Shown piece by piece: positions 27,548 to 56,758 of a DNA stretch of 64,000 nt. The DNA comes from Acidobacteriota bacterium. Its GTDB lineage: Bacteria > Acidobacteriota > Aminicenantia > Aminicenantales > Saccharicenantaceae. The stretch covers positions 62,001 to 126,000 of the forward strand of contig JAKLEN010000002.1 of assembly GCA_022711665.1 (NCBI GenBank). Reading direction: 5' to 3'. The position numbers and the translations under genes are program-made. The notes below the pieces were generated by a model that had not been told where the DNA came from, did not search any database, and worked only from the letters and a program-made list of their open reading frames with translations. Positions within the stretch are counted from its first letter, which is position 1. Each line of letters starts with the position of its first letter.

Positions 27548-27582
27548 TGTCCCGCCGTCGGGCGCTCGTTCGGCGGTCCAAT

Positions 27583-27655
27583 GGCTAGGTAGCTCAGTTG
27601 GTAGAGCGAAGGACTGAAAATCCTTGCGTCGGCGGTTCAATTCCGTCCCTAGCCA
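27583..27655 (+). tRNA. tRNA-Phe (anticodon GAA)
   Basis: This is a complete 73-base cloverleaf. The acceptor stem GGCTAGG (27583-27589) pairs with CCTAGCC (27648-27654), with discriminator A at 27655. The D arm is GCTC/GAGC, the anticodon stem AAGGA/TCCTT around loop CTGAAAA with anticodon GAA, and the T arm GGCGG/CCGTC around TTCAATT. The CCA end is not encoded. Its 3' part is duplicated at 34862-34916, marking it as the attachment site of the element downstream. Confidence 0.96.
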
Positions 27656-27669
27656 TTTTCCTTTTCCCT
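27615..27669 (+). repeat. attL: 55-bp direct repeat overlapping the tRNA-Phe 3' end
   Basis: Bases 27615-27669 run from the anticodon loop through the tRNA end and 14 bases beyond. They are identical to 34862-34916; identity stops at 27670 versus 34917. Duplication of a tRNA 3' segment is the signature of tyrosine-recombinase integration. Confidence 0.93.
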
Positions 27670-27843
27670 CCCCATATAAAGCCTGAGGTCAAGATCAAGC
27701 GGGTTCTTCAGCATAACGACCATCTGCTCTTATTTACGGACAACCGGGATTTCCCGGGATATCCGCGAGCTCTGTGCCTGAAGGAACTGAACTACAACCC
27801 GATCTGCGGGAAGGTAGTCTGGACCTGGAATAGGCTCGATTAG
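27670..27843 (+). pseudogene. Start-less coding remnant at the left end of the island
   Basis: One frame reads on from the tRNA end without a stop to 27843. Its last ~50 residues look like real protein (VLQHNDHLLLFTDNRDFPGY ... KVVWTWNRLD). No ATG, GTG or TTG precedes that part within the island, so it looks like the 3' end of a gene cut by integration. No family is recognised. The remaining bases to 27902 hold a weak 6-bp hairpin (27848-27866) and the ribosome site of the next gene. Confidence 0.4.
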
Positions 27844-28327: not shown

Positions 28328-29680
28328 ATGGATATTAAGATCCTGGTGATCCTTGCCTTGATTGGACTGCTCATTTGGGCCATAACGCAGCTTCTGAAGG
28401 CCAAAAAGGGGTATGCGTCTCTCCAAGAAAAGTATTCTCCAATCACCGATCTCGAGGCTCACAAGGATAAGCTCAAAGACGAAGCAGCAGCCACCGAGGT
28501 AGAGATCTCGACGCTGAAGGAGGATTACCGCAACAAAAAGGAAATCTATGATTCGCTCATTAAGGAGCTCGCGTTATATGAGGAAGAGGTCGAAATAAGC
28601 TCGTATGGACTTTATAAGCCTCATTTTGATTTCCAGACCTCAGAGCAATATAAAGAAATGCTCGAAGAGATCAAGAAAAAAGAGAAGCTGCTTATAACGG
28701 ATGAAGGCGCCTACTATTGTGGTACTCAATGGACGGTCAACAATAGTAGGACCGAAGGGAAGCGGCAGACCAAGCAGTACGGGAAGCTGATGCTCAGGGC
28801 GTTCAACGGAGAGAGCGATGCTCTGATTTCCAATGTCCGCTGGAATAATATTGCGAAGTCTGAAGAACGACTTGAGAAATCGTTTGAAGTGATAAATAAA
28901 CTCGGTACAACTCATCACATAGAGATCACAAAGAAGTACTACGATCTCAAGCTCGAGGAACTCAGGCTTACTTACGAGTATGAGGAAAAGCGTCATCAAG
29001 AAAAGGAAGAGCAGCGCCGCATCCAAGAACAAATCCGCGAAGAAGAAAAGGCACAGCGGGAATATGAGAAGGCGCTGAAGGAAACTGAAGAAGAGGAAAA
29101 GCGTTATAACAAGGCCCTTGAACAGGCACGGTCTGAACTAGGAACTGCTCAAGGCGCCAAGCTTGATGATTTGAATTTAAAGATCGCTACCCTTGAGACT
29201 CAGCTGAAGGGAGCTCAGGAAAAAGAAAGGGCCCTATCCCAAGCACAACTCACCAAATCCGGCCACATCTATGTCATTTCCAACATAGGCGCCTTTGGAG
29301 AGGATGTCTTCAAGATCGGGATGACCCGACGCCTCGAGCCAGAAGAACGAATCAAAGAGCTTGGCGATGCCTCCGTGCCCTTCGAGTTCGATATCCATGC
29401 GATGATCCATTCTGACAACGCGCCCGAACTGGAGGGCCAGATTCACAAGCGAATCGAGGGCAAGAAGATCAACCTCCTGAACAACCGAAGAGAGTTCTTC
29501 AAGATCAATATGGTTGAACTTGAGAATATAATCCATGAATTCAAGGCCGACATCGAGCTCACTAAGGTTGCAGAAGCAAGAGAGTACCGGGAGACCTTGG
29601 CGATGAGAGAAAAGGTATCGGTGAGTAATGCCGAACCAGTTCCCCCGCCAGCAACGGCTAAGTTCCCTGAAAGCATCTAG
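28328..29680 (+). CDS. Membrane-anchored DUF4041/T5orf172 (GIY-YIG-like) protein
   Basis: The 450-residue protein has an N-terminal transmembrane helix (3-22) and a coiled coil (30-90). A conserved central DUF4041-type domain follows (about 100-200, with TKQYGKLMLRAFNGESD), then a very charged coiled coil (205-310) and a C-terminal T5orf172/Mug113 domain (312-400). That domain reads GHIYVISN ... DVFKIGMTRR ... RREFF, a GIY-YIG-like nuclease fold with the tyrosine and arginine retained. Related proteins occur in phages and mobile islands; their function is not firmly known. A trailing 40 residues are low-complexity. Membrane anchoring of a nuclease-like domain is notable. Confidence 0.8.
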   Translation: MDIKILVILALIGLLIWAITQLLKAKKGYASLQEKYSPITDLEAHKDKLKDEAAATEVEISTLKEDYRNKKEIYDSLIKELALYEEEVEISSYGLYKPHFDFQTSEQYKEMLEEIKKKEKLLITDEGAYYCGTQWTVNNSRTEGKRQTKQYGKLMLRAFNGESDALISNVRWNNIAKSEERLEKSFEVINKLGTTHHIEITKKYYDLKLEELRLTYEYEEKRHQEKEEQRRIQEQIREEEKAQREYEKALKETEEEEKRYNKALEQARSELGTAQGAKLDDLNLKIATLETQLKGAQEKERALSQAQLTKSGHIYVISNIGAFGEDVFKIGMTRRLEPEERIKELGDASVPFEFDIHAMIHSDNAPELEGQIHKRIEGKKINLLNNRREFFKINMVELENIIHEFKADIELTKVAEAREYRETLAMREKVSVSNAEPVPPPATAKFPESI

Positions 29681-29773: not shown

Positions 29774-30376
29774 ATGAACTCGAGCCCGGAGGACAGCATT
29801 GAACTCCTGAAGCTATTTGTTGAGCGTGTCGAAAAGCTAGATGGTTCTTCATATATCAAGACAATCCGCGAAAACCATCTGAAGCTTAGTATTAAAGCGA
29901 GCTTCGTCGACAGGACCATACGGTTTACTAATTCCGCCCCAAACTCAGAGTATCTTGATGCATTTCTTTTCACGCTCCGGCTCTTCATGCAGAAGAAGGA
30001 TTCTATTTCTATCGTTAAGACGGCCGACATGATTGAAGCCCTGAACGTCAGCCAGGAGGCTAAAGATCGGTTTTTCAGACAGCAAAACTTCCTAGATAAA
30101 TTCCTTGAAGAACCTAGCATGATTATGATTGACGGCAGGGCGATTAATAACAATGAACTCCTGGAGACCATTCTCTATGGTTATCGTGGCCATTTGAAGA
30201 TCAGCCAGCCCTTATATAAACAGTACAAAGAGTGGGCAGCGAATCCAATTGCGACAAACATAGTTGGCTTCGCTTTCAACAATGTCCTTGTTACCTATTT
30301 TGAAGCGCTCTGTGTTATGGCCGGGAATTGCCGGCTTATGCTAGCGGAGCTACAGGCCAAAACAGAAGCTGGATAA
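29774..30376 (+). CDS. Hypothetical island protein
   Basis: The 200-residue, mostly helical soluble protein has no signal peptide. The ribosome site AAGGAAG lies four bases before ATG 29774. The C-terminal ~70 residues are more hydrophobic (NPIATNIVGFAFNNVLVTYFEALCVMAG) and may be membrane-associated. I do not recognise a family. It is followed directly after its stop by a GC-rich palindromic repeat (30377-30408). Confidence 0.65.
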   Translation: MNSSPEDSIELLKLFVERVEKLDGSSYIKTIRENHLKLSIKASFVDRTIRFTNSAPNSEYLDAFLFTLRLFMQKKDSISIVKTADMIEALNVSQEAKDRFFRQQNFLDKFLEEPSMIMIDGRAINNNELLETILYGYRGHLKISQPLYKQYKEWAANPIATNIVGFAFNNVLVTYFEALCVMAGNCRLMLAELQAKTEAG

Positions 30377-30408
30377 GGCGCCAGGCCCCAGGCAGGCGGC
30401 CGCGGGTA
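30377..30408. repeat. GC-rich post-stop palindromic repeat, copy A
   Basis: This 32-base element begins GGCGCCAGG and ends GGCCGCGGGTA directly after the TAA at 30374-30376. It is closely related to copies at 30845-30877 and 37177-37209. It stands out as strongly GC-rich inside AT-rich island DNA. Confidence 0.6.
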
Positions 30409-30449
30409 AAGGATAGCTGCTAAAGGATTGTTCTCAGGGAGCCAGTAAG

Positions 30450-30827
30450 ATGCAGTACAAGAAGGCGGTTGAGGTAATTGGCTTCAATAAGCTTAGGGTG
30501 CGAGCCATAGGATTCATGTCGTTTCCGGTCTTCTTAGGGATTGGAATTATCGGCTCTATCAAATGGAAGTGGTATGCGCTGCCGTTGGCTATGTTTACGG
30601 GATGGCTATTAGGAAACGTATTCTCTTTTTTCATGATTAAAAGAATGAAAAAAATCACCGGCTTGGACCTAAATAGCCAGATAATCGCCTATCACGAAAG
30701 CCTTGCATGCAGACAACATCCTATAGCAAAGGATTATCGAGCATATCGTTCGCTAATTGAATCTATGGCGGACGAAGAGGACTCTGCCTGGCCGACCTAT
30801 GAGGGAAGCAATGATGATAATGGTTGA
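30450..30827 (+). CDS. Two-helix membrane protein of unknown function
   Basis: The 125-residue protein has two hydrophobic segments (FMSFPVFLGIGIIGSI and YALPLAMFTGWLLGNVFSFFMI) and then a soluble helical tail (ACRQHPIAKDYRAYRSLIE...) ending in an acidic stretch. GGGAG lies eight bases before the ATG. No family is recognised. Copy B of the palindromic repeat follows 17 bases after the stop. Confidence 0.62.
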   Translation: MQYKKAVEVIGFNKLRVRAIGFMSFPVFLGIGIIGSIKWKWYALPLAMFTGWLLGNVFSFFMIKRMKKITGLDLNSQIIAYHESLACRQHPIAKDYRAYRSLIESMADEEDSAWPTYEGSNDDNG

Positions 30828-30844
30828 TGATCACCATAGTCTGA

Positions 30845-30877
30845 GGCGCCAGGGCCCGGGCCGGCGGCCGCGGGCTA
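30845..30877. repeat. GC-rich post-stop palindromic repeat, copy B
   Basis: This 33-base element matches copy C (37177-37209) at 28 positions and shares the GGCGC start and GGCCGCGGGCTA end. It lies between the small membrane protein and the TcmP-like gene. Internal inverted repeats (GGCCCGGGCC) allow a strong hairpin but no T-run follows. Confidence 0.6.
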
Positions 30878-30902
30878 GGCTTTGACAAGGAGGGTCTGCC
30901 AG

Positions 30903-31997
30903 TTGTCAAGGATAACCTCAACGAGATGGCCTATTGAGCCGCATACGGCAGCTAAACATGCAATTCTTAAGAAATACCTCCATGCCTGGCTGCCAATCAT
31001 GTCAAGCAGAGGGGGCTCTATCAATTATGTTGATGGTTTTTCTGGCCCCGGCGAGTATACGGGAGGCGAAGAAGGCTCTCCGCTCATTGCTATAAGGGCT
31101 ATTGTGGAGCGGGCTACTCCCCTGGCGGCGAAATGCACTCTAACTTTCATAGAGGCCGACAGGTCACGCTATGAATATTTAGCACAGAAGATCGCAGGAA
31201 TCACGCTACCGAATAACGTCAGAGCCGGCTGCTACTGCGACCGGTTTGAAACAATAATGACAGCTGAGCTCGACAGGCTTGAAGGAGAAGGCAATGTAAT
31301 CGCCCCTGCATTTGTCTTCATTGATCCATTCGGCTTCTCTGGTGTCCCCATGTCACTTATTAGGCGCATTATGAACAATCCTCACTGCGAGGTTCTTATC
31401 ACGTTTATATACGAGGAACTCAACAGGTTTATTAGCCTGGAGAGCCTTTGGCCTGCCGCCACTGCCCTATTTGGCAACGATGAATGGCGGAGAGTAATGA
31501 ACGTAACTGAATCCAGGCTCCGAGAATCTACTCTTCATGGAATCTATCAAACCCAGCTGCGAGCGGCTGCCGGGATCCGTCACGTTTTGTCTTTTAAGAT
31601 GAAGAACAGGTCGAACACGACTGATTATTTTCTTTTCTTTGGCACTAACCATATCCTCGGACTTAAGAAGATGAAGGAGGCTATGTGGAACGTTGATGAA
31701 TCTGGCTCTTTCCTATTTTCCGATAATACGCACAATCCTTCTCAACCCGTGCTCTTTCAACAAGAACCTGACTTCGGACTTCTTAAGCATTTATTGCTTG
31801 CCCGCTTCAGAGGTTCTGCGCCGACTGTAGGCGAGTTAGAAGAGTACGTACTGACCGAAACACCATTCAGGGAGACGCATTATAAGAGACAAGTCCTCAA
31901 GCCAATGGAGCAGACAGAGGAAATCCGTGTTCGTTGCCCGAGGCGAGATAGAAGAAAGGGATCATTCCCTGAAGACTGTATCATAGAATTTCCATAG
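30903..31997 (+). CDS. tcmP: Three-Cys-motif partner protein TcmP-like
   Basis: The 364-residue protein has the typical N-terminal PIEPHTAAKHAILKKYLHAWLPI, YVDGFSGPGEY, and later FIDPFGFSGVP, all hallmarks of the TcmP family, which is found beside radical-SAM-like phage Gp37/Gp68-type proteins. The DGFSGPG and FIDPFG loops suggest a methyltransferase-like Rossmann core, an inference. TTG 30903 is the chosen start because AAGGAGGG lies eight bases upstream; the TTG at 30882 would precede that site. Its partner gene follows 39 bases downstream. Biochemical role unknown. Confidence 0.85.
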   Translation: MSRITSTRWPIEPHTAAKHAILKKYLHAWLPIMSSRGGSINYVDGFSGPGEYTGGEEGSPLIAIRAIVERATPLAAKCTLTFIEADRSRYEYLAQKIAGITLPNNVRAGCYCDRFETIMTAELDRLEGEGNVIAPAFVFIDPFGFSGVPMSLIRRIMNNPHCEVLITFIYEELNRFISLESLWPAATALFGNDEWRRVMNVTESRLRESTLHGIYQTQLRAAAGIRHVLSFKMKNRSNTTDYFLFFGTNHILGLKKMKEAMWNVDESGSFLFSDNTHNPSQPVLFQQEPDFGLLKHLLLARFRGSAPTVGELEEYVLTETPFRETHYKRQVLKPMEQTEEIRVRCPRRDRRKGSFPEDCIIEFP

Positions 31998-32036
31998 TCC
32001 GTTATGTTAGCATGAGTAATAAAAACGGAGAGCGAC

Positions 32037-32891
32037 ATGGACAAGATAGTCAGAAAATCTCTGCTATATAAAAGCCAAGTCGAATACGGTGACTTCTGTA
32101 TAAACCACGTTGAGGGATGCGCTCATGGATGCAAGTTCCCATGCTACGCGATGCTCCTCAAGAGACGGTGCGGCATAATAAGAGATTATCAAGAATGGAT
32201 TAAGCCGAAGATCGTTTCGAACGCTCTAGATCTCCTTCAAGCTGAACTGCCAAGATACGGGAATAGGATTAATCGTGTTCATCTTTGTTTTTCGACTGAC
32301 CCTTTTATGTTTGGCTATCCAGAGGTGTCTGATCTTAGCACGCGGATCATAGAGGAATTGAACAATAGCGACATTAGGTCGATTGTACTAACGAAAGGTG
32401 TCTTGCCTGCGACCCTGGCGACCATCGGCCGGCAAAAAAAGAATGAATTTGGCATTACCTTAGTCTCATTAGACGAGAACTTCCGCGCCGCCTATGAACC
32501 TTATTCTGCCCCATATTCGGAAAGAATCAGTTCGCTGAGGCAATTACATCAACGAGGCCTAAAAACGTGGGTGAGTATCGAGCCCTTCCCTACTCCCAAT
32601 ATCGGTGAGCAAGACCTTTCAGCGATCCTCCAGAAAATTTCTTTCGTTGATAAAATTGTATTTGGCAGGATGAATTACAATCCGCAGGTTCTTCGCTACC
32701 GGGATTGGCAGGCATTTTATGAAATGTGCACGTGTTTAGTGACGGACTTTTGTAAAAAGCAAAAAATCGATGTGCACATTAAGAGGGGCACGTCCGCAAT
32801 CTATGATGAGAGCCTAAAGCAATCTGTAGTTCAAGATTGGAAAGGTGCTAAAGGCTCCTCCTCTGAATATCGGCCAACACTATTTGAATAG
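32037..32891 (+). CDS. Radical-SAM-like protein, partner of TcmP, with CX3CX3C motif
   Basis: The 284-residue protein resembles spore-photoproduct-lyase/COG1533-like radical SAM proteins. The N-terminal GCAHGCKFPCYAM (about residues 27-39) corresponds to the usual GCxHGCxYCYA, but has one extra residue, making C-x3-C-x3-C. Later strands HLCFSTDPF, IVLTKG, GITLVSLDE, WVSIEPFPTPN and the terminal half fit a TIM-barrel. GGAGAG lies just before the ATG. With the adjacent TcmP it forms a conserved mobile pair of unknown function. Whether it binds a [4Fe-4S] cluster needs testing because of the spacing. Confidence 0.78.
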   Translation: MDKIVRKSLLYKSQVEYGDFCINHVEGCAHGCKFPCYAMLLKRRCGIIRDYQEWIKPKIVSNALDLLQAELPRYGNRINRVHLCFSTDPFMFGYPEVSDLSTRIIEELNNSDIRSIVLTKGVLPATLATIGRQKKNEFGITLVSLDENFRAAYEPYSAPYSERISSLRQLHQRGLKTWVSIEPFPTPNIGEQDLSAILQKISFVDKIVFGRMNYNPQVLRYRDWQAFYEMCTCLVTDFCKKQKIDVHIKRGTSAIYDESLKQSVVQDWKGAKGSSSEYRPTLFE

Positions 32892-32961: not shown

Positions 32962-33226
32962 TTGATTAGGAAGCACGGCCCCCTCTACCGGCTTGATATC
33001 CGTGTCGACGGGAAGCGCGTCCGGCGCTCCCTTAAGACCGGCGCGCAGGGCATGGCCCTTGAGCGTGCCCGCGAGATCGAGCGCGAGCTCCGGGAACCGA
33101 AGGCTCCTGGTGTCGATATCAGGGACTTTTCTCTTAAAGTACCTGAACTGGGCCTGGGTCACGAAGCCGGCCTCGGCCGACCAGGAATCCCGCCGGATGA
33201 AGAAAATCCTCCCAGGAGCGAGCTGA
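32962..33226 (+). pseudogene. Frameshifted and truncated tyrosine recombinase (integrase) remnant
   Basis: From TTG 32962 the frame reads RKHGPLYRLDIRVDGKRVRR ... ERAREIERELRE, the arm-type DNA-binding domain of a phage-like integrase. Around 33121-33135, at a TTTT run, the coding signal moves to the next frame: KYLNWAWVTKPASADQESRR, then MKKIL, the start of the core-binding domain, which ends at a TGA (33224-33226). The catalytic domain with R...HxxR...Y is absent. This is therefore the dead integrase of the island, broken by at least one indel and a deletion. Confidence 0.78.
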
Positions 33227-33280
33227 TCGTTGAATGCCAGTACTTCCTTTTTACCGCCGACTAATTTATAAGGAGGTTTC

Positions 33281-34576
33281 ATGACAGCCGAAATCGCGGT
33301 TCTCAACAAGGAAGCCATCGCCTTGGCTGCGGATAGCGCGGTAACTATGTCAGGACCGTCGGGCCGGAAGATCTTTCAGTCGGCAAATAAAATATTTGCC
33401 TTATCCAAGCGCTATCCAGTAGGCATCATGGTGTTTGGCAATGCAAACTTCATGGACGTTCCTTGGGAGACGATCATAAAGAAGTATCGCAGTTCGCTTG
33501 GAGAAAAGGGATTTGATGATTGCGAAGATTACGCAAAGGACTTCTTTTCATATTTAACAAAAGCGAGCCGTCTTTTCCCAGCTTCTCAGCAGGATAAATA
33601 TTTCTCCAATACTCTAGAGAGCTATTTTACCCACCTGAGAACTCAGATAATTAAGAAGGTTCAAAGCCGTCAAGAACAAGCAGGATCTATAGACGAAGAA
33701 CAAGTACGCCTTTTGGTATCAGAGAGGATATCTGCTCTTCATGAGAAGCTGGGCAAATACACTTACCTTCCGAAAATGGATGCAAAATTCGAGGCGAGTC
33801 TGGCAACGAAATATAGGCTGAAGATCGAAGAAATCAGAGGAAAGGTTTTTGAACAGCTTCCTTTGTCTGAAACGGATTCTCTGAAGCTTAAAGATATCGC
33901 GGTGGAAATCTTTTGCAGGATGGGTCAAGATGTCTTCCATTCGGGGATATCCGGGGTGGTTATCGCTGGCTTTGGCCATGACGACATTTTTCCACGCCTG
34001 TATGCATATTACGCCGAAGGGATAGTCAGAAAGCGGGTTAAATATTTTAAATCGGGAGAGCAAGTAATTAGTCACGATTCGGCATCAGCGATAATGCCCT
34101 TCGCCCAAGATGAAATGGTCTGTTCGTTCATGGAAGGAGTTGTTCCAGGCTATGAAAAAGAAATTGAGAGGTACCTAAACGATATATGCCATGAATATCC
34201 CAAGGCCATCTTGGACAGTATTGTCTCTCTAGCAGAGGAAGAAAGAAACCGAATTAAAGAGAACCTTGGCCAGCTCAGCGAGGAATGGCTAAAGAATTAC
34301 AAAAAGCGGCTGGATACATACAGAACCGAGCATTTCGTCGATCCTGTAATAAACGTTGTTTCAGTCCTTCCCAAAGACGAACTGGCCACGATGGCCGAAA
34401 CCCTCGTGAACTTGACATCCTTCAGAAAAAAAGTCACTATTGAAGAAGAAACCGTAGGAGGTCCAATAGACGTTGCTGTCATCTCCAGGGGGGATGGGTT
34501 CATTTGGATCAAGAGAAAACACTATTTTAAGCCTGATTTAAACCAAAATTTCTTTTCAAATTACCGGAGACATTAG
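33281..34576 (+). CDS. Proteasome/HslV-like Ntn-hydrolase homologue with large helical insertion
   Basis: The 431-residue protein starts with Met then Thr. Counting that Thr as 1, it aligns without gaps to HslV of this same genome (56231-56758): T1, V6, K9, A13, AAD with D17, and VTM at 20-22. A lysine in NKIF (K37 of the precursor) corresponds to catalytic K33 after a three-residue insertion, and FGNANF matches the glycine loop. Residues ~60-220 are an inserted helical domain. The fold resumes at GVVIAGFG (225-232) with FPRLYAYYAEG and ends GGPIDVAVISRGDGFIWI. This suggests a threonine protease. It is preceded by AAGGAGG and followed by a 60-residue gene. No unfoldase partner is nearby. Confidence 0.72.
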   Translation: MTAEIAVLNKEAIALAADSAVTMSGPSGRKIFQSANKIFALSKRYPVGIMVFGNANFMDVPWETIIKKYRSSLGEKGFDDCEDYAKDFFSYLTKASRLFPASQQDKYFSNTLESYFTHLRTQIIKKVQSRQEQAGSIDEEQVRLLVSERISALHEKLGKYTYLPKMDAKFEASLATKYRLKIEEIRGKVFEQLPLSETDSLKLKDIAVEIFCRMGQDVFHSGISGVVIAGFGHDDIFPRLYAYYAEGIVRKRVKYFKSGEQVISHDSASAIMPFAQDEMVCSFMEGVVPGYEKEIERYLNDICHEYPKAILDSIVSLAEEERNRIKENLGQLSEEWLKNYKKRLDTYRTEHFVDPVINVVSVLPKDELATMAETLVNLTSFRKKVTIEEETVGGPIDVAVISRGDGFIWIKRKHYFKPDLNQNFFSNYRRH

Positions 34577-34580
34577 AAAA

Positions 34581-34763
34581 ATGCAAAAAGTTCAGACCAA
34601 AGAATCCCGGAAGTTTGAGAGAATCGAGGAGTTCGAGCGGACCTACTTTCCAGAGTACTCTCGGCATAAGGCAGAAAAAGCAAAAGCTGAAAAGCCAGGT
34701 GCGTTCGGTCATGCACTCGCTAACGAATTTATTACCAAGGTAAGATCTGCCTTAAGGAAGTAA
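34581..34763 (+). CDS. 60-residue companion protein of the Ntn-hydrolase homologue
   Basis: The small, very charged helical protein (QKVQTKESRKFERIEEFERT ... FITKVRSALRK) starts four bases after the upstream stop, so the two are probably cotranslated. It has no recognised family. Size and coupling suggest a regulator, adaptor or substrate of the protease-like protein, by context only. The ribosome site is weak (GGAG 13 bases upstream), consistent with translational coupling. The following 98 bases to the repeat hold nothing I can name. Confidence 0.6.
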   Translation: MQKVQTKESRKFERIEEFERTYFPEYSRHKAEKAKAEKPGAFGHALANEFITKVRSALRK

Positions 34764-34861
34764 AGAGTCGGAACCAGCAGGGCACGATTCTGGACGCAGA
34801 CGCAGGGATGTTTTCTTTATGGGGATGATATTAAATCTGTTATTGCTTTCATCCTCCGGAG

Positions 34862-34916
34862 TGAAAATCCTTGCGTCGGCGGTTCAATTCCGTCCCTAGC
34901 CATTTTCCTTTTCCCT
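34862..34916 (+). repeat. attR: 55-bp direct repeat of the tRNA-Phe 3' end
   Basis: This is identical to 27615-27669 and contains only the 3' half of tRNA-Phe, so it is not a tRNA gene. It marks the right end of the island. Confidence 0.93.
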
Positions 34917-35472
34917 TCCCAAGCCGCGTGACGGCGCTTCCCCCTCGGTCGTCCTGGGTCGGGCTCGAGACCCGTTCCCTGATCGACGGCTCGGAGGACT
35001 GGGAAAGCGGCCGGAGCTGCATCAAACTGGAATACTCCCTGGGGGCCCCGGAGAACAACCGGAGCTTCCTGACGGCTCGGCCGGCGGGCTGAAGAGCATC
35101 ACGACGGCCCCTCCCAGTATCTAAGAAGCCATAAATTCCTATTAGGCCTCCTTTTAGTATTATCTCCTCGGGTAAATTCGAATTTTTAAATATTTTTTGG
35201 GTGGACGACGATTTTTGCGGTCCCGACATGTCTTTGTCCTTAGGGAGGCGCGTATCCGGGGAAAAAGGCAAGCTACGTCCAAGGGGGAATATGCACGACA
35301 CCATAAGCGGGAGCCATGCTTCCGAGGCGAAACGGCAAACATCGGTCATTCAGGTAGAAGATACCGCTTCTTTTTGTTCCTTATGAGGTCCTGGCGAAGC
35401 ATAAAATTGGGACGTCGATTTCGGGCAGAAAGCCTGCTACGGCTCCCTTATATTCATCACAAAGGAGACATC
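34917..35472. other. Intergenic transition zone right of the island
   Basis: The first ~175 bases are GC-rich. In one frame they read like the end of a host protein (LETRSLIDGSEDWESGR ... NNRSFLTARPAG, stop at 35090-35092) without a start, possibly a remnant. From about 35100 to 35472 the DNA is AT-rich with no convincing gene; it includes an A/T-rich block (35140-35200) and the leader of the outer-membrane protein gene. Confidence 0.35.
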
Positions 35473-36939: not shown

Positions 36940-37176
36940 ATGCTGCGCTTTCACTCCCCCTTCGACGGAAGAAGGTTCATCGGGGACAACCGGCTGAAGA
37001 TCTTCCATGATTCCGTCTACGAGGCGCCGGTGCGGGCGTCGGGCGGCTGCGGCATCGACCGGATCCCCGCGGAAGAGATCCGGATCTTCGCGCCGGACAC
37101 GGCCGGCGAGGCCAAGAAGCGCGGCTTCGTCCCCTGCCCCTGCTGCGGGCACATCGACCGGCACCTGCACGAGTGA
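36940..37176 (+). CDS. Small protein with Ada-like zinc-binding pattern
   Basis: The 78-residue protein has FIGDNRLKIFHD, then a GGCGIDRIPAEEIRIF stretch, AGEAKKRGFVPCPCCGHIDRH and a terminal HE. The succession of one Cys, R-I-x-x-E-x-x-I-F, an A/G-x-K-x-G helix and P-C-x-C-C resembles the metal-binding domain of Ada, though cysteine spacing is not identical. This is only a resemblance. ATG 36940 is preceded by GAGGA four bases upstream; an in-frame ATG at 36895 is also possible. Repeat copy C lies directly after the stop. Confidence 0.5.
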   Translation: MLRFHSPFDGRRFIGDNRLKIFHDSVYEAPVRASGGCGIDRIPAEEIRIFAPDTAGEAKKRGFVPCPCCGHIDRHLHE

Positions 37177-37209
37177 GGCGCGCCGGCCCCGGCCGGGGGC
37201 CGCGGGCTA
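37177..37209. repeat. GC-rich post-stop palindromic repeat, copy C
   Basis: This 33-base element directly follows the TGA at 37174-37176 and reaches the stop of the convergent porin gene. It matches copy B at 28 of 33 positions. GGCCCCGGCCGGGGGCC inside it can form a strong hairpin, so it may act as a two-way terminator here. Confidence 0.55.
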
Positions 37210-38505
37210 GAACTTGTAGCTGACCGCGATCGAGGGGACGACGATGTTCATGCCGTACGTCCCCGGCATGGAGCCCGCCGACGCCCCCGCGCAGGTCCTC
37301 TCGCGACCCGTATAATACTCCAGGCCGAGATCGATCTGCAGGCCGTCGAAGCTCTTGCCCACGCCGGCGCAGATCGTGTTGTAGGCGAAGTTGGGCAGGA
37401 GGGCGTTGAGGGTCGCGTCCGGCCCCGGCGCCGGGTCATGGTAGTAGCCGGCCCGCAGGGCCGTCGTCGCGTTCACCCGGAATTCCGCGCCGAACCGGAA
37501 CTGGGCCTTGTCGGACCAGCCCATGCCGCGGACGTCGTTGCCGCTCGCGCCCATGAGGATCGCCCAGACGGCATCCAGATAGTCGGTCGTGATCCGGTCG
37601 AGCTTCGACCATTGGGTCCACTGGACGTCGGCGCTGAGGAGAAGGCGCTCGAAGGGCCGGAAGGCGACGCCGCCGGCGATCCAGAGCGGCCAGGTGATCT
37701 TGCGTTCGAGGTCGGAGGAGCCGGGCAGGCCGTAGGGAGAAAGATTGGGCAGCAGGGCGGAGCCCTTGTAGGCCAGGGTCGACGGCGTCCGCACGGTCAG
37801 GCCGAGGCTGAGCTTGTCGATGGGCTTGGCCAGGACGCCGAAGGTCGCCCCGATCCCCCAGCCGTGCATGTTCTCCTCGTACTGGCCCAGGTCCACCGTC
37901 CCCCCGCCCAGGTCGGCGGAACCGGCCGGCATCTTGAGCCGGAAATTCCCGTACTGGACGTCGACCGTGGCCCCGACGGAAAGCCAATCGTTGAGCCGGA
38001 CGGCGACGAGCGGCGAGGCGGTGAAGACCTCGATCTTGCTCGACCAGTCGTAGGCCGTTCCGCCGGACAGATCGGTGAAATCCGCCCCGTTCCATTTCGT
38101 TCCCAGGCCCGAAGGCGTGCCGATGCCCAGGCCGACCACGACCTTGGAGCTGATCGGCTTATAGTAGGCGCCCAGGAAGCCCAGGTAATGGGCCTTCTTG
38201 GTCTCGGCCGCGACGGTGGGCGGCGGGTACTCGGGGATATACACGAGGTCCGGCGGGATGGACAGGTTGTAGCTCGTCTTCGGCATGAGGTCCGTCGTGT
38301 AGAAGCCGAAGATCGTCCGCTTGAACCCGGCCGCGCCGGCGGGATTCCAGAACACGGCGCTGAAGTCGTCGGCGACGGCGACGAACGCGCCGCCCATGCC
38401 CTGGGACCGCGAGCCCAGGCCGTTCAGGTTGAGCCCGTTGGCCGGGGCCAGCGAGGGCAGAAGGATAAGGGCCGCCAGGCCCGCGATGAGGATCTTCTTG
38501 ATCAT
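37207..38505 (-). CDS. OMPP1/FadL-family outer-membrane transport protein
   Basis: The 432-residue protein has a signal peptide (MIKKILIAGLAALILLPSLAPA), then NGLNLNGLGSRSQGMGGAFVAVADDFSAVFWNPAG, the conserved N-terminal hatch region of FadL/TodX-type channels for hydrophobic substrates. Alternating beta strands follow, and it ends PSIAVSYKF with a C-terminal aromatic residue. ATG 38505 is used because the signal peptide starts there and GGAG lies nine bases upstream; the frame is open further but runs into clpB. Monocistronic; substrate unknown. Confidence 0.88.
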   Translation of the reverse strand: MIKKILIAGLAALILLPSLAPANGLNLNGLGSRSQGMGGAFVAVADDFSAVFWNPAGAAGFKRTIFGFYTTDLMPKTSYNLSIPPDLVYIPEYPPPTVAAETKKAHYLGFLGAYYKPISSKVVVGLGIGTPSGLGTKWNGADFTDLSGGTAYDWSSKIEVFTASPLVAVRLNDWLSVGATVDVQYGNFRLKMPAGSADLGGGTVDLGQYEENMHGWGIGATFGVLAKPIDKLSLGLTVRTPSTLAYKGSALLPNLSPYGLPGSSDLERKITWPLWIAGGVAFRPFERLLLSADVQWTQWSKLDRITTDYLDAVWAILMGASGNDVRGMGWSDKAQFRFGAEFRVNATTALRAGYYHDPAPGPDATLNALLPNFAYNTICAGVGKSFDGLQIDLGLEYYTGRERTCAGASAGSMPGTYGMNIVVPSIAVSYKF

Positions 38506-54300: not shown

Positions 54301-54834
54301 TCAGCATACACCCGGGGCGGCCGGCCGGTCGACCCCCGGGGCCCGGCCGGGGGCCTCGACGACCGCCGGGGCGGCGAAGTCCGAGAATCGTCCCTTGCGG
54401 TCGACCACCCGGACGGTGAAAGCGAGCTTGGCCGGGACGGCCGTTCCGGGCGGCAGATCGTAGGTGAAGGTCATGACCCCGCTCCCCTCCCCCGCCGCGC
54501 CGCGATGGGCCGCGAACTCGGCCGCCGGGATACGGCCGGCCAGGCGGGCCGTCTTCTCGACGGCCCCGGCCGTGAGCGGAACGCCGGCGGCCGGCAGGCC
54601 CTTGTCGAAGACCCAGATCTCGACGGCGGCCAGGGGGCCGACGGGCCGGCCGGAGACCGTCTTGACGGGATCGATCCAGCGCAGGACGACCGCGCCCCGG
54701 CCGGCGGCGGCGGACAGCTCCGCGACCGGCAGGGGCGCCCGGCCCGGCGGCAGGATGAGCGGGCCCTTGCGGCCGCAGGCGGGGATCACGGCCAGGCACA
54801 GCCCGGCCAGGAGCATCGCGATCCGTTTATCCAT
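54301..54834 (-). CDS. Lipoprotein with fibronectin-like domain
   Basis: The 177-residue protein has a type II signal peptide ending in VIPAC (lipid cysteine C20), followed by CGRKGPLILPPG, a start seen in small LptM-like lipoproteins. A beta-sandwich, fibronectin type III-like body then follows (VVLRWIDPVKTVSG, AFTVRVVDRKGRFSD). Function unknown. It lies between hslU (1-bp overlap) and the FAH gene and is probably exported to the outer membrane. Confidence 0.78.
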   Translation of the reverse strand: MDKRIAMLLAGLCLAVIPACGRKGPLILPPGRAPLPVAELSAAAGRGAVVLRWIDPVKTVSGRPVGPLAAVEIWVFDKGLPAAGVPLTAGAVEKTARLAGRIPAAEFAAHRGAAGEGSGVMTFTYDLPPGTAVPAKLAFTVRVVDRKGRFSDFAAPAVVEAPGRAPGVDRPAAPGVC

Positions 54835-56231
54835 CAGAGGATGAAGCGCCGCAGGTCCTGGCTGACGAGGATGTCCTTCAGGTGCTCCTGGACGTAGGTC
54901 CGGTCGATCTTGATGGCCTTCGGGGCGATGTTCGGGGCGGCGAAGGAGATGTCCTCCATCACCTTTTCGACGACCGTGTGGAGGCGGCGGGCGCCGATGT
55001 TCTCGGCGTCGGCGTTGACCTTCTCGGCGATGTCGGCGATCTCCTCGACGGCGTCCGGCGTGAACGAGACCTTGACGCCCTCCGTGCCCATGAGCGCCTC
55101 GTATTGGCGGATGAGGGCGTTCTCGGGCTCGGTCAGGATGCGGACGAAGTCGTCCTTGGTGAGGGGCGTGAGCTCGACCCGGATGGGGAAACGGCCCTGG
55201 AGCTCGGGGATGAGGTCGGAGGGCTTGGCGACGTGGAAGGCCCCGGCCCCGATGAACAGGATGTGGTCGGTCCGGACGAGGCCGAAGCGGGTGTTGACGG
55301 TCGTGCCCTCGATGATCGGCAGGAGGTCGCGCTGGACGCCCTCCCGGCTGACGTCGGGGCCGCGGCCGGACTCGCGGCCGGCGATCTTGTCGACCTCGTC
55401 GAGGAAGATGATGCCCGACTGCTCGACCCGCTCGATGGCCAGGCGCGAGACCTGGTCCATGTCCACCAGGCGCTTCTCCTCCTCCTCGAGCAGCAGCTCG
55501 CGGGCTTCCTTGACCTTGACCCGGCGGCGCTTGGTCCGGCCGCCGAGGAAGCCGGGCAGGAACTCCTGGATCTGGAAGCCGATCTCCTCGATCCCCTGGT
55601 TCGAGACGACCTCGAGGGGCGGCGTCGTCTTTTCCTTGACCTCCATCTCGACCCAGCGCTCCTCGAGGAGGCCCTGGCGGAGCTGGGCCCGGAGCTTTTC
55701 CCGCGTCTCGACCGGGGCGGGGCCGGCCTCGGCCGCCCCGTCGCCGGCGTCCTCGCGCTTCCGGGCCGGCGGCAGGAGGATGTCGAGAAGCCGCTCCTCG
55801 ACGGCGGCCCGGGCCTTGCCCTCGATGGCCGCGATCTCCTCCTGCTTGACCATGTCGACGGAGATGCGGACGAGATCGCGGATCATGGACTCGACGTCGC
55901 GGCCGACGTAGCCGACCTCGGTGAACTTGCTGGCTTCAATCTTGAGGAAGGGGGATGAGGTCAGCTTGGCCAGGCGGCGGGAGATCTCGGTCTTGCCGAC
56001 GCCGGTCGGGCCGATCATGAGGATGTTCTTGGGCGCGATCTCGTCGGCCAGGGCGGGCGGCAGCTTGCGGCGCCGGAAGCGGTTGCGCAGGGCGATGGCC
56101 ACGGCCTTCTTGGCCGCCTTCTGGCCGATGATGTACTTGTCGAGCTCGGCCACGATCTCCTGCGGCGTCAGTTCGGCGTCGGGAGGCTCGACCGGGGGCG
56201 CTTCGAGCGATTCGGGCAGGTGGATGGGCAT
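54834..56231 (-). CDS. hslU: ATP-dependent protease ATPase subunit HslU
   Basis: The 465-residue AAA+ unfoldase has [17 protein letters not shown], Walker [17 protein letters not shown], Walker [14 protein letters not shown], an I-domain between about 110 and 240, sensor residues near [12 protein letters not shown], and a C-terminus ending DLRRFIL. The last residues dock into HslV to activate it. It overlaps hslV by one base. Confidence 0.96.
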
Positions 56232-56758
56232 CAGAGCTCCTCGACCGTGATCTCGGCGTTGGTGTAGACGCAGATGTCGGCGGCGATGCGCAGGGCCTCC
56301 TCGGCGATGGCCCGGGCGTCGAGGTCCGTGTGTTTGATCAGGGCCCGGGCCGCGGCCAGGGCGTAGGAGCCGCCCGAGCCGATGGCCAGGATGCCGTCGT
56401 CGGACTCGATGACATCGCCGGTGCCCGAGATCAGAAGCGAGGAGTCCTTGGAGGCCACGATGAGCAGGGCGTCGAGCTGGCGCAGGGCCTTCTCCATGCG
56501 CCAGTCCTTGGCCAGCTCGATGGCCGCCCGGGCCAGGTTGCCGCGGTGCTCCTCGAGCTTGGTTTCGAAACGTGCGAACAGGGCGAAGGCGTCGGAGGTG
56601 GCCCCGGCGAAGCCGGCCAGGACGTCCCCTTTGCCCAAGCGACGGATCTTGGTGGCGGTCTTCTTGAGGACGGTCTGCCCCATGGTCACCTGGCCGTCGG
56701 CGGCCATGGCCGTTTTCCCCTTATGGCGGACGCAGATGACGGTCGTCGAACGGATCAT
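56231..56758 (-). CDS. hslV: ATP-dependent protease peptidase subunit HslV
   Basis: The 175-residue threonine protease is the bacterial proteasome beta homologue. After a four-residue propeptide (MIRS) the catalytic Thr begins [20 protein letters not shown]17 and K33 of the mature form are present, along with [13 protein letters not shown]. It forms a dodecamer capped by HslU. It is the first gene of a nine-gene minus-strand run. It gives an internal reference for the HslV-like island protein at 33281-34576. Confidence 0.96.

Follow-up and report, generated by a model that had tools for sequence, protein, structure and literature searches.

In the window, that is, the whole 64,000-nucleotide stretch of DNA analysed, an island of 7,247 bp is integrated in tRNA-Phe. 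Its last cargo is a pair of adjacent genes, the first encoding a proteasome-like Ntn hydrolase and the second a protein of only 60 residues. The features of the island, and the HslV and HslU genes of the window, are listed below.

27582..27656, + strand: tRNA-Phe(gaa), the integration target
27611..27674, + strand: attL-like copy of a 64-nt direct repeat (tRNA 3' end)
28328..29680, + strand: cargo gene for a DUF4041 + T5orf172 protein (PADLOC PD-Lambda-1, E 2e-164)
30882..31997, + strand: cargo gene for the three-Cys-motif partner TcmP (PADLOC candidate PDC-M30A, E 7e-73)
32037..32891, + strand: cargo gene for a radical-SAM/DUF5131-like protein, directly after TcmP and pairing with it
32962..33264, + strand: probable integrase remnant, directly 5' of the Ntn gene (weak Arm-DNA-bind match, E 0.02, below cut-off)
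33270..33276, + strand: AAGGAGG, ribosome-binding site of the Ntn gene, just 5' of its ATG
33281..34576, + strand: gene for the proteasome-like Ntn hydrolase (most likely PMI-4-type; PHROG 5990), 431 aa, with predicted catalytic residues Thr2 (exposed once Met is gone), Asp18 and Lys37
34581..34763, + strand: small partner gene (MQKVQTKESRKFERIEEFERTYFPEYSRHKAEKAKAEKPGAFGHALANEFITKVRSALRK), 60 aa, 4 nt past the Ntn stop; basic tail and three helices predicted
34858..34921, + strand: attR-like copy of the 64-nt repeat, 97% identical, 94 nt past the partner gene
54834-56231, - strand: HslU, adjoining HslV
56231-56758, minus strand: HslV of the window

The first-pass annotation of this DNA had placed the reading frame 33281-34576 on a tRNA-integrated island beside nuclease-like and TcmP genes. 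This placement is borne out by the 64-nt repeats, by the family matches and by the GC content, which is 0.44-0.50 within the island vs about 0.66-0.70 in the flanks, and the exact coordinates of the frame (+ strand, 431 aa) were confirmed. The small gene at 34581-34763 was absent from that annotation. With regard to the remaining cargo, the DUF4041/T5orf172 gene (28328-29680) is of a known phage-defence type, and the TcmP and radical-SAM/DUF5131-like genes (30882-32891) form a candidate two-gene defence pair. Two other island genes, at 29774-30376 (200 aa) and 30450-30827 (125 aa), could not be convincingly assigned to a family by Pfam, NCBIfam, PADLOC or PHROGs. A GC-rich repeat of 37 nt, with copies 81-86% alike, is found twice in the AT-rich island (30374-30410 and 30842-30878) and once outside it (37174-37210).

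Fold, active site and family of the Ntn protein

The relation of the Ntn protein to the proteasome is apparent at its N-terminus, which had been aligned without gaps to the HslV of the window; all the shared positions named at the time (T1, V6, K9, A13, AAD17 and VTM) are correct, and so is the position of HslV, to which its minus-strand orientation and the adjoining HslU can now be added. Pairwise BLASTP of the two proteins gives E 0.006, and a profile of the Ntn family matches HslV over residues 2-47 with E 1.5e-4. Compared with all PDB sequences, the same profile ranks an archaeal proteasome beta subunit at the top, with two collinear matching segments, namely the T1-K33 region and the strand SGGMIDVAVI (also given as SGG-IDVAVI). 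The AlphaFold2 model of the protein (pLDDT 92.5, pTM 0.88) was superposed by VIA-align on the archaeal 20S beta subunit 3h4p_a (Z 16.7, 189 residues, 3.8 A) and on 5fmg_I (Z 16.6, 176 residues, 2.8 A), with model residue 2 falling on beta residue 1 (Thr1); a Foldseek search with the model found Anbu and 20S beta. The alpha-beta-beta-alpha fold of proteasome type anticipated from the N-terminus is thus what the predicted structure displays. A chance match to HslV was considered and rejected on the basis of the profile E-values, the ranking of PDB sequences and the structural alignment.

The model also refines the architecture. A large helical insertion is present, as previously claimed, but the span assigned to it, residues 60-220, was too wide because residues 62-94 form the canonical helices H1/H2. 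The insertion covers residues about 97-215 (helices 101-212), after H1/H2, and a second insertion, which had been overlooked, covers residues about 289-362, between the helices at 278-285 (H3) and 365-385 (H4).

Relatives of the protein were collected from a genome scan (224, of which 80 were kept) and from IMG/VR (51). The conservation of T2, D18 and K37, on which the earlier reading had been staked beforehand, held across an alignment of 77 homologs: Thr2 is present in 76 and replaced by Ser in one, while Asp18 and Lys37 are each found in 77/77. The same three positions (Thr2/Ser2, Asp18, Lys37) remain intact even in homologs of about 30% identity, whether bacterial, archaeal or from phages. 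A methionine followed by threonine is a predicted target of methionine aminopeptidase, and therefore the Ntn protein needs no propeptide; removal of Met1 would leave Thr2 as the nucleophile, and Asp18 and Lys37 would complete the triad. Hydrolysis by the proteasome is assisted by Ser129 and Ser169. In sequence comparisons no invariant Ser was found at these two positions in the Ntn family, and the equivalent of position 169 is Val392 (98%), which follows Glu390 and Thr/Ser391. As for its chemistry, the enzyme, put forward in the first-pass annotation as an active or adapted threonine protease, may be a peptidase, an amidase or a ligase. The changed residues at the auxiliary positions are what might be expected of a catalytically dead fold acting as a binding scaffold, but the retention of Thr2/Ser2, Asp18 and Lys37 in 77/77 homologs, with Ser2 as the single exception to threonine, makes such a scaffold very improbable.

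The Ntn protein is without a match over the cut-off in Pfam, NCBIfam and PADLOC, the last of which has no model for the enzyme. PF00227 does not match it at E <= 1, whereas the HslV of the window scores 3e-23. A full-length match (E 1e-124) was obtained with PHROG 5990, which is the same family, although the PHROGs entry gives no function, fold or partner. A computational description of 22 proteasome-like homologs (Fuchs, Alva and Lupas 2021; PMC8665760) includes PMI-4, represented by HDY66466.1 and the most numerous novel homolog by the counts given there, with 501 sequences at 90% identity from most bacterial phyla, Euryarchaeota and phages; it has a long insertion after H1/H2, another between H3/H4, and a function described as unknown, neither genomic context nor co-occurrence having hinted at one. 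The same layout of insertions is found in the Ntn model, and the relatives collected here cover the same range (many bacterial phyla, Euryarchaeota and phages). Judged by architecture and phyletic range against that description, the Ntn protein most likely belongs to PMI-4. The statement in the first-pass annotation that no system with such a layout had been described is accordingly withdrawn, since the protein fits PMI-4 (PMC8665760) and belongs to PHROG 5990. The likeness to PMI-4 extends to the proteasome beta core with Thr/Asp/Lys, to both insertions and to the range; the difference is the small downstream partner gene, unmentioned in the available text of PMC8665760. No experimental work on the Ntn family was found in the literature, as covered by open-licence papers. 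The fold family is already described; what is new is that a small partner accompanies the enzyme almost universally and that the two genes form a mobile unit.

The other known proteasome relatives differ more clearly. HslV and the 20S beta subunits share the fold and the catalytic triad with the Ntn protein, which differs from them in its two large insertions and in lying below PF00227 detection. HslV is a compact subunit paired with HslU, whereas the Ntn protein has 431 aa and two insertions, and no HslU or AAA+ gene is adjacent to the module. The two helical insertions would hinder the assembly of a double ring of the HslV type, following Fuchs et al., and the enzyme is therefore probably a monomer or a small oligomer. 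Connectase, a proteasome relative presented in PMC8665760 as a sequence-specific ligase, also has a proteasome-like Ntn fold, helical insertions and no propeptide; however, its two-helix insertion lies between S3 and S4 and it lacks H1/H2, whereas in the Ntn model the S3/S4 loop is short and both H1 and H2 are present at residues 62-94.

The small partner gene

The partner gene lies directly 3' of the Ntn gene, usually overlapping it or only a few bases apart. A small ORF in this position (45-95 aa, starting -60 to +30 nt) was found at 76/79 homologous genome loci with enough sequence, the ORF picked being wrong or doubtful in some of them, vs 97/490 control genes, which were other genes of the same loci. 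Under a strict criterion (ATG only, start -35 to +15, 50-80 aa), the counts were 65/79 loci and 21/490 controls (p 1e-52). Two of the exceptions, L033 and L076, have a partner of the main class behind a frameshift, and L044 is the only one of the 79 loci without a partner ORF. The nucleotide changes in the partner fall mainly at third positions, and dN/dS values of 0.06-0.28 were obtained for the scorable related pairs, a few other pairs being saturated at synonymous sites; on these sequence comparisons the partner gene is under purifying selection. Genetic distances of enzyme and partner correlate (r 0.81). Such a correlation is expected of any linked genes, as of a jointly inherited unit. 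Terminator-like hairpins are located 3' of the partner at 41/111 loci vs 30/555 random stretches, a contrast somewhat flattered because the random stretches include coding DNA.

The main class of partners comprises 56/114 distinct sequences and is characterized by a basic tail, an amphipathic helix at the C-terminus and the motif ....S..EFE..(Y/F)FP(K/N/E), whose Pro is invariant; for the main-class partner, three helices are predicted by AlphaFold2 (pLDDT 83.6). Of 37,660 six-frame segments, 54 were matched at E <= 0.01 by a profile of the main class, built from 40 partners and used at round 1 only. The labelling script placed 51/54 of these adjacent to the Ntn gene, and the other three (L019, L049 and L033) are the partner too, lying immediately 3' of the Ntn gene within segments that are longer or frameshifted. 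Iterated profiles were discarded, having drifted to the 3' end of the Ntn gene read in a shifted frame.

Across the loci, the partners are helical and about 35-75 aa long. Elsewhere, in types from Bacteroidota, Bacillota and gammaproteobacterial phages, the partner is divergent beyond recognition while size and position remain constant; in E. coli, partners are as short as 34-49 aa. Searches of ten partner proteins against Pfam and PHROGs gave nothing convincing, no peptide motif common to all partner classes was found, and the partner alignment had no stretch conserved enough to search viral contigs. When L006 was read through an in-frame stop, the partner rows were left unaligned in the partner region. 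The partner classes beyond the main one are so divergent that they may or may not share an ancestor with it.

Two loci show other arrangements. In a genome of the same phylum (G073), in which no enzyme was found, an ORF of 69 aa (L155, 4215-4424) consists of the first ten residues of the enzyme, MTAEIAILNK, followed in frame by partner sequence. It has the appearance of a remnant, left when the enzyme was deleted in frame and the partner was spared, and is the only case found of a partner without the enzyme. At L146 (G176), a shorter proteasome-like relative (850-1710, 286 aa, starting MT) overlaps a downstream ORF of 107 aa (1707-2030). Partner genes may also accompany other PMI types.

The small protein, translated right after the enzyme, would be its dedicated partner. 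It would most likely be a regulator of the enzyme, binding it so as to keep it from acting or to bring it to a target, and less likely a substrate. As a dedicated substrate or acceptor it would be cleaved or ligated by the enzyme, in the manner of connectase acting on a specific sequence. PMC8665760 offers in connectase a relative that is a sequence-specific ligase, a (Y/F)FP(K/N/E) motif with its invariant Pro is conserved in the main class of partners, and invariant Ser residues were not found at the Ser129/Ser169 positions; yet the enzyme has H1/H2 and not the S3-S4 insertion of connectase, and the partner varies strongly among classes that have no motif in common. A substrate role of this kind appears unlikely. 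The explanation preferred here, and held with moderate confidence, is a regulated mobile module of two genes, a threonine hydrolase and a dedicated small partner.

Mobile carriage and the possible role of the pair

The distribution of the Ntn family is very patchy. Among 297 genomes of the phylum, it was found in the genome of the window, in one other genome as a split copy and in three more as distant relatives, and none was present in three genomes of the same genus. Copies from archaea and from bacteria are intermixed in the tree, whose well-supported branches require at least four changes of label. The Ntn gene is the last or near-last cargo in Streptococcus satellite phages, follows the lysin in Streptococcus phage Javan85, and is also found in phages of Providencia, Stenotrophomonas and Porphyromonas and in an E. 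faecium plasmid. In E. coli it is present in 22/5426 genomes, and the three loci inspected all lie in prophages. Within Rac-like prophages of E. coli, a variable slot after the repressor houses the pair; in other prophages that slot is occupied by a HicB-type pair, a HipA-like pair (PADLOC candidate PDC-M66A, E 2e-6) or coiled-coil pairs. These alternatives are typical accessory cassettes expressed in the lysogen. At many loci, prophages, phage satellites, plasmids or islands carry the pair as accessory cargo.

Many chromosomal copies, on the other hand, lie amid housekeeping or metabolic genes, and this, together with the unfoldase-free roles that Fuchs et al. suggest for proteasome homologs (PMC8665760), would suit a general peptidase of housekeeping type that clears unfolded proteins, with the small protein as its structural subunit or assembly chaperone and no part in conflict. 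The patchy distribution, the carriage by mobile elements, the spread between domains and the cargo slot in prophages all argue against such an enzyme, which is considered improbable. A mobile module with a regulatory partner, the preferred reading, would protect the host or the resident element, and its likeliest single role would be anti-phage defence of an abortive or toxin-antitoxin type. As in the toxin-antitoxin layout, the unit is compact and consists of two genes, with a small, adjacent and co-inherited partner. The pair resembles toxin-antitoxin and superinfection-exclusion cassettes in its small size, in having two genes and often a terminator to itself, and in occupying the cargo slot of prophages and satellites; it differs from them in that the Ntn module contains no family known for toxins, antitoxins or exclusion.

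From such comparisons of genes and their neighbourhoods, a role in defence or of a toxin-antitoxin-like kind would be plausible. It is favoured by the cargo positions, by the alternative cassettes and by the PD-Lambda-1 and TcmP/radical-SAM genes of the island, and weakened by the ordinary chromosomal neighbours and by PADLOC matches, whose frequency beside the module does not clearly exceed that at a distance of 5 or more genes. Among the larger genes nearby, none is conserved across the loci. It is only tentatively proposed that the module, as present in bacteria, archaea, prophages and satellites, is a conflict system in which the hydrolase is controlled by, or acts through, its partner.

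Surveys of gene context can miss such partners when the gene is too short for annotation. In the 2021 description, the 22 homologs are without a functional clue, and the near-universal partner would be the first testable handle on the function of PMI-4. If the proposed role is true, the Ntn enzyme would be the first proteasome relative acting in conflict between phage and host or between elements.
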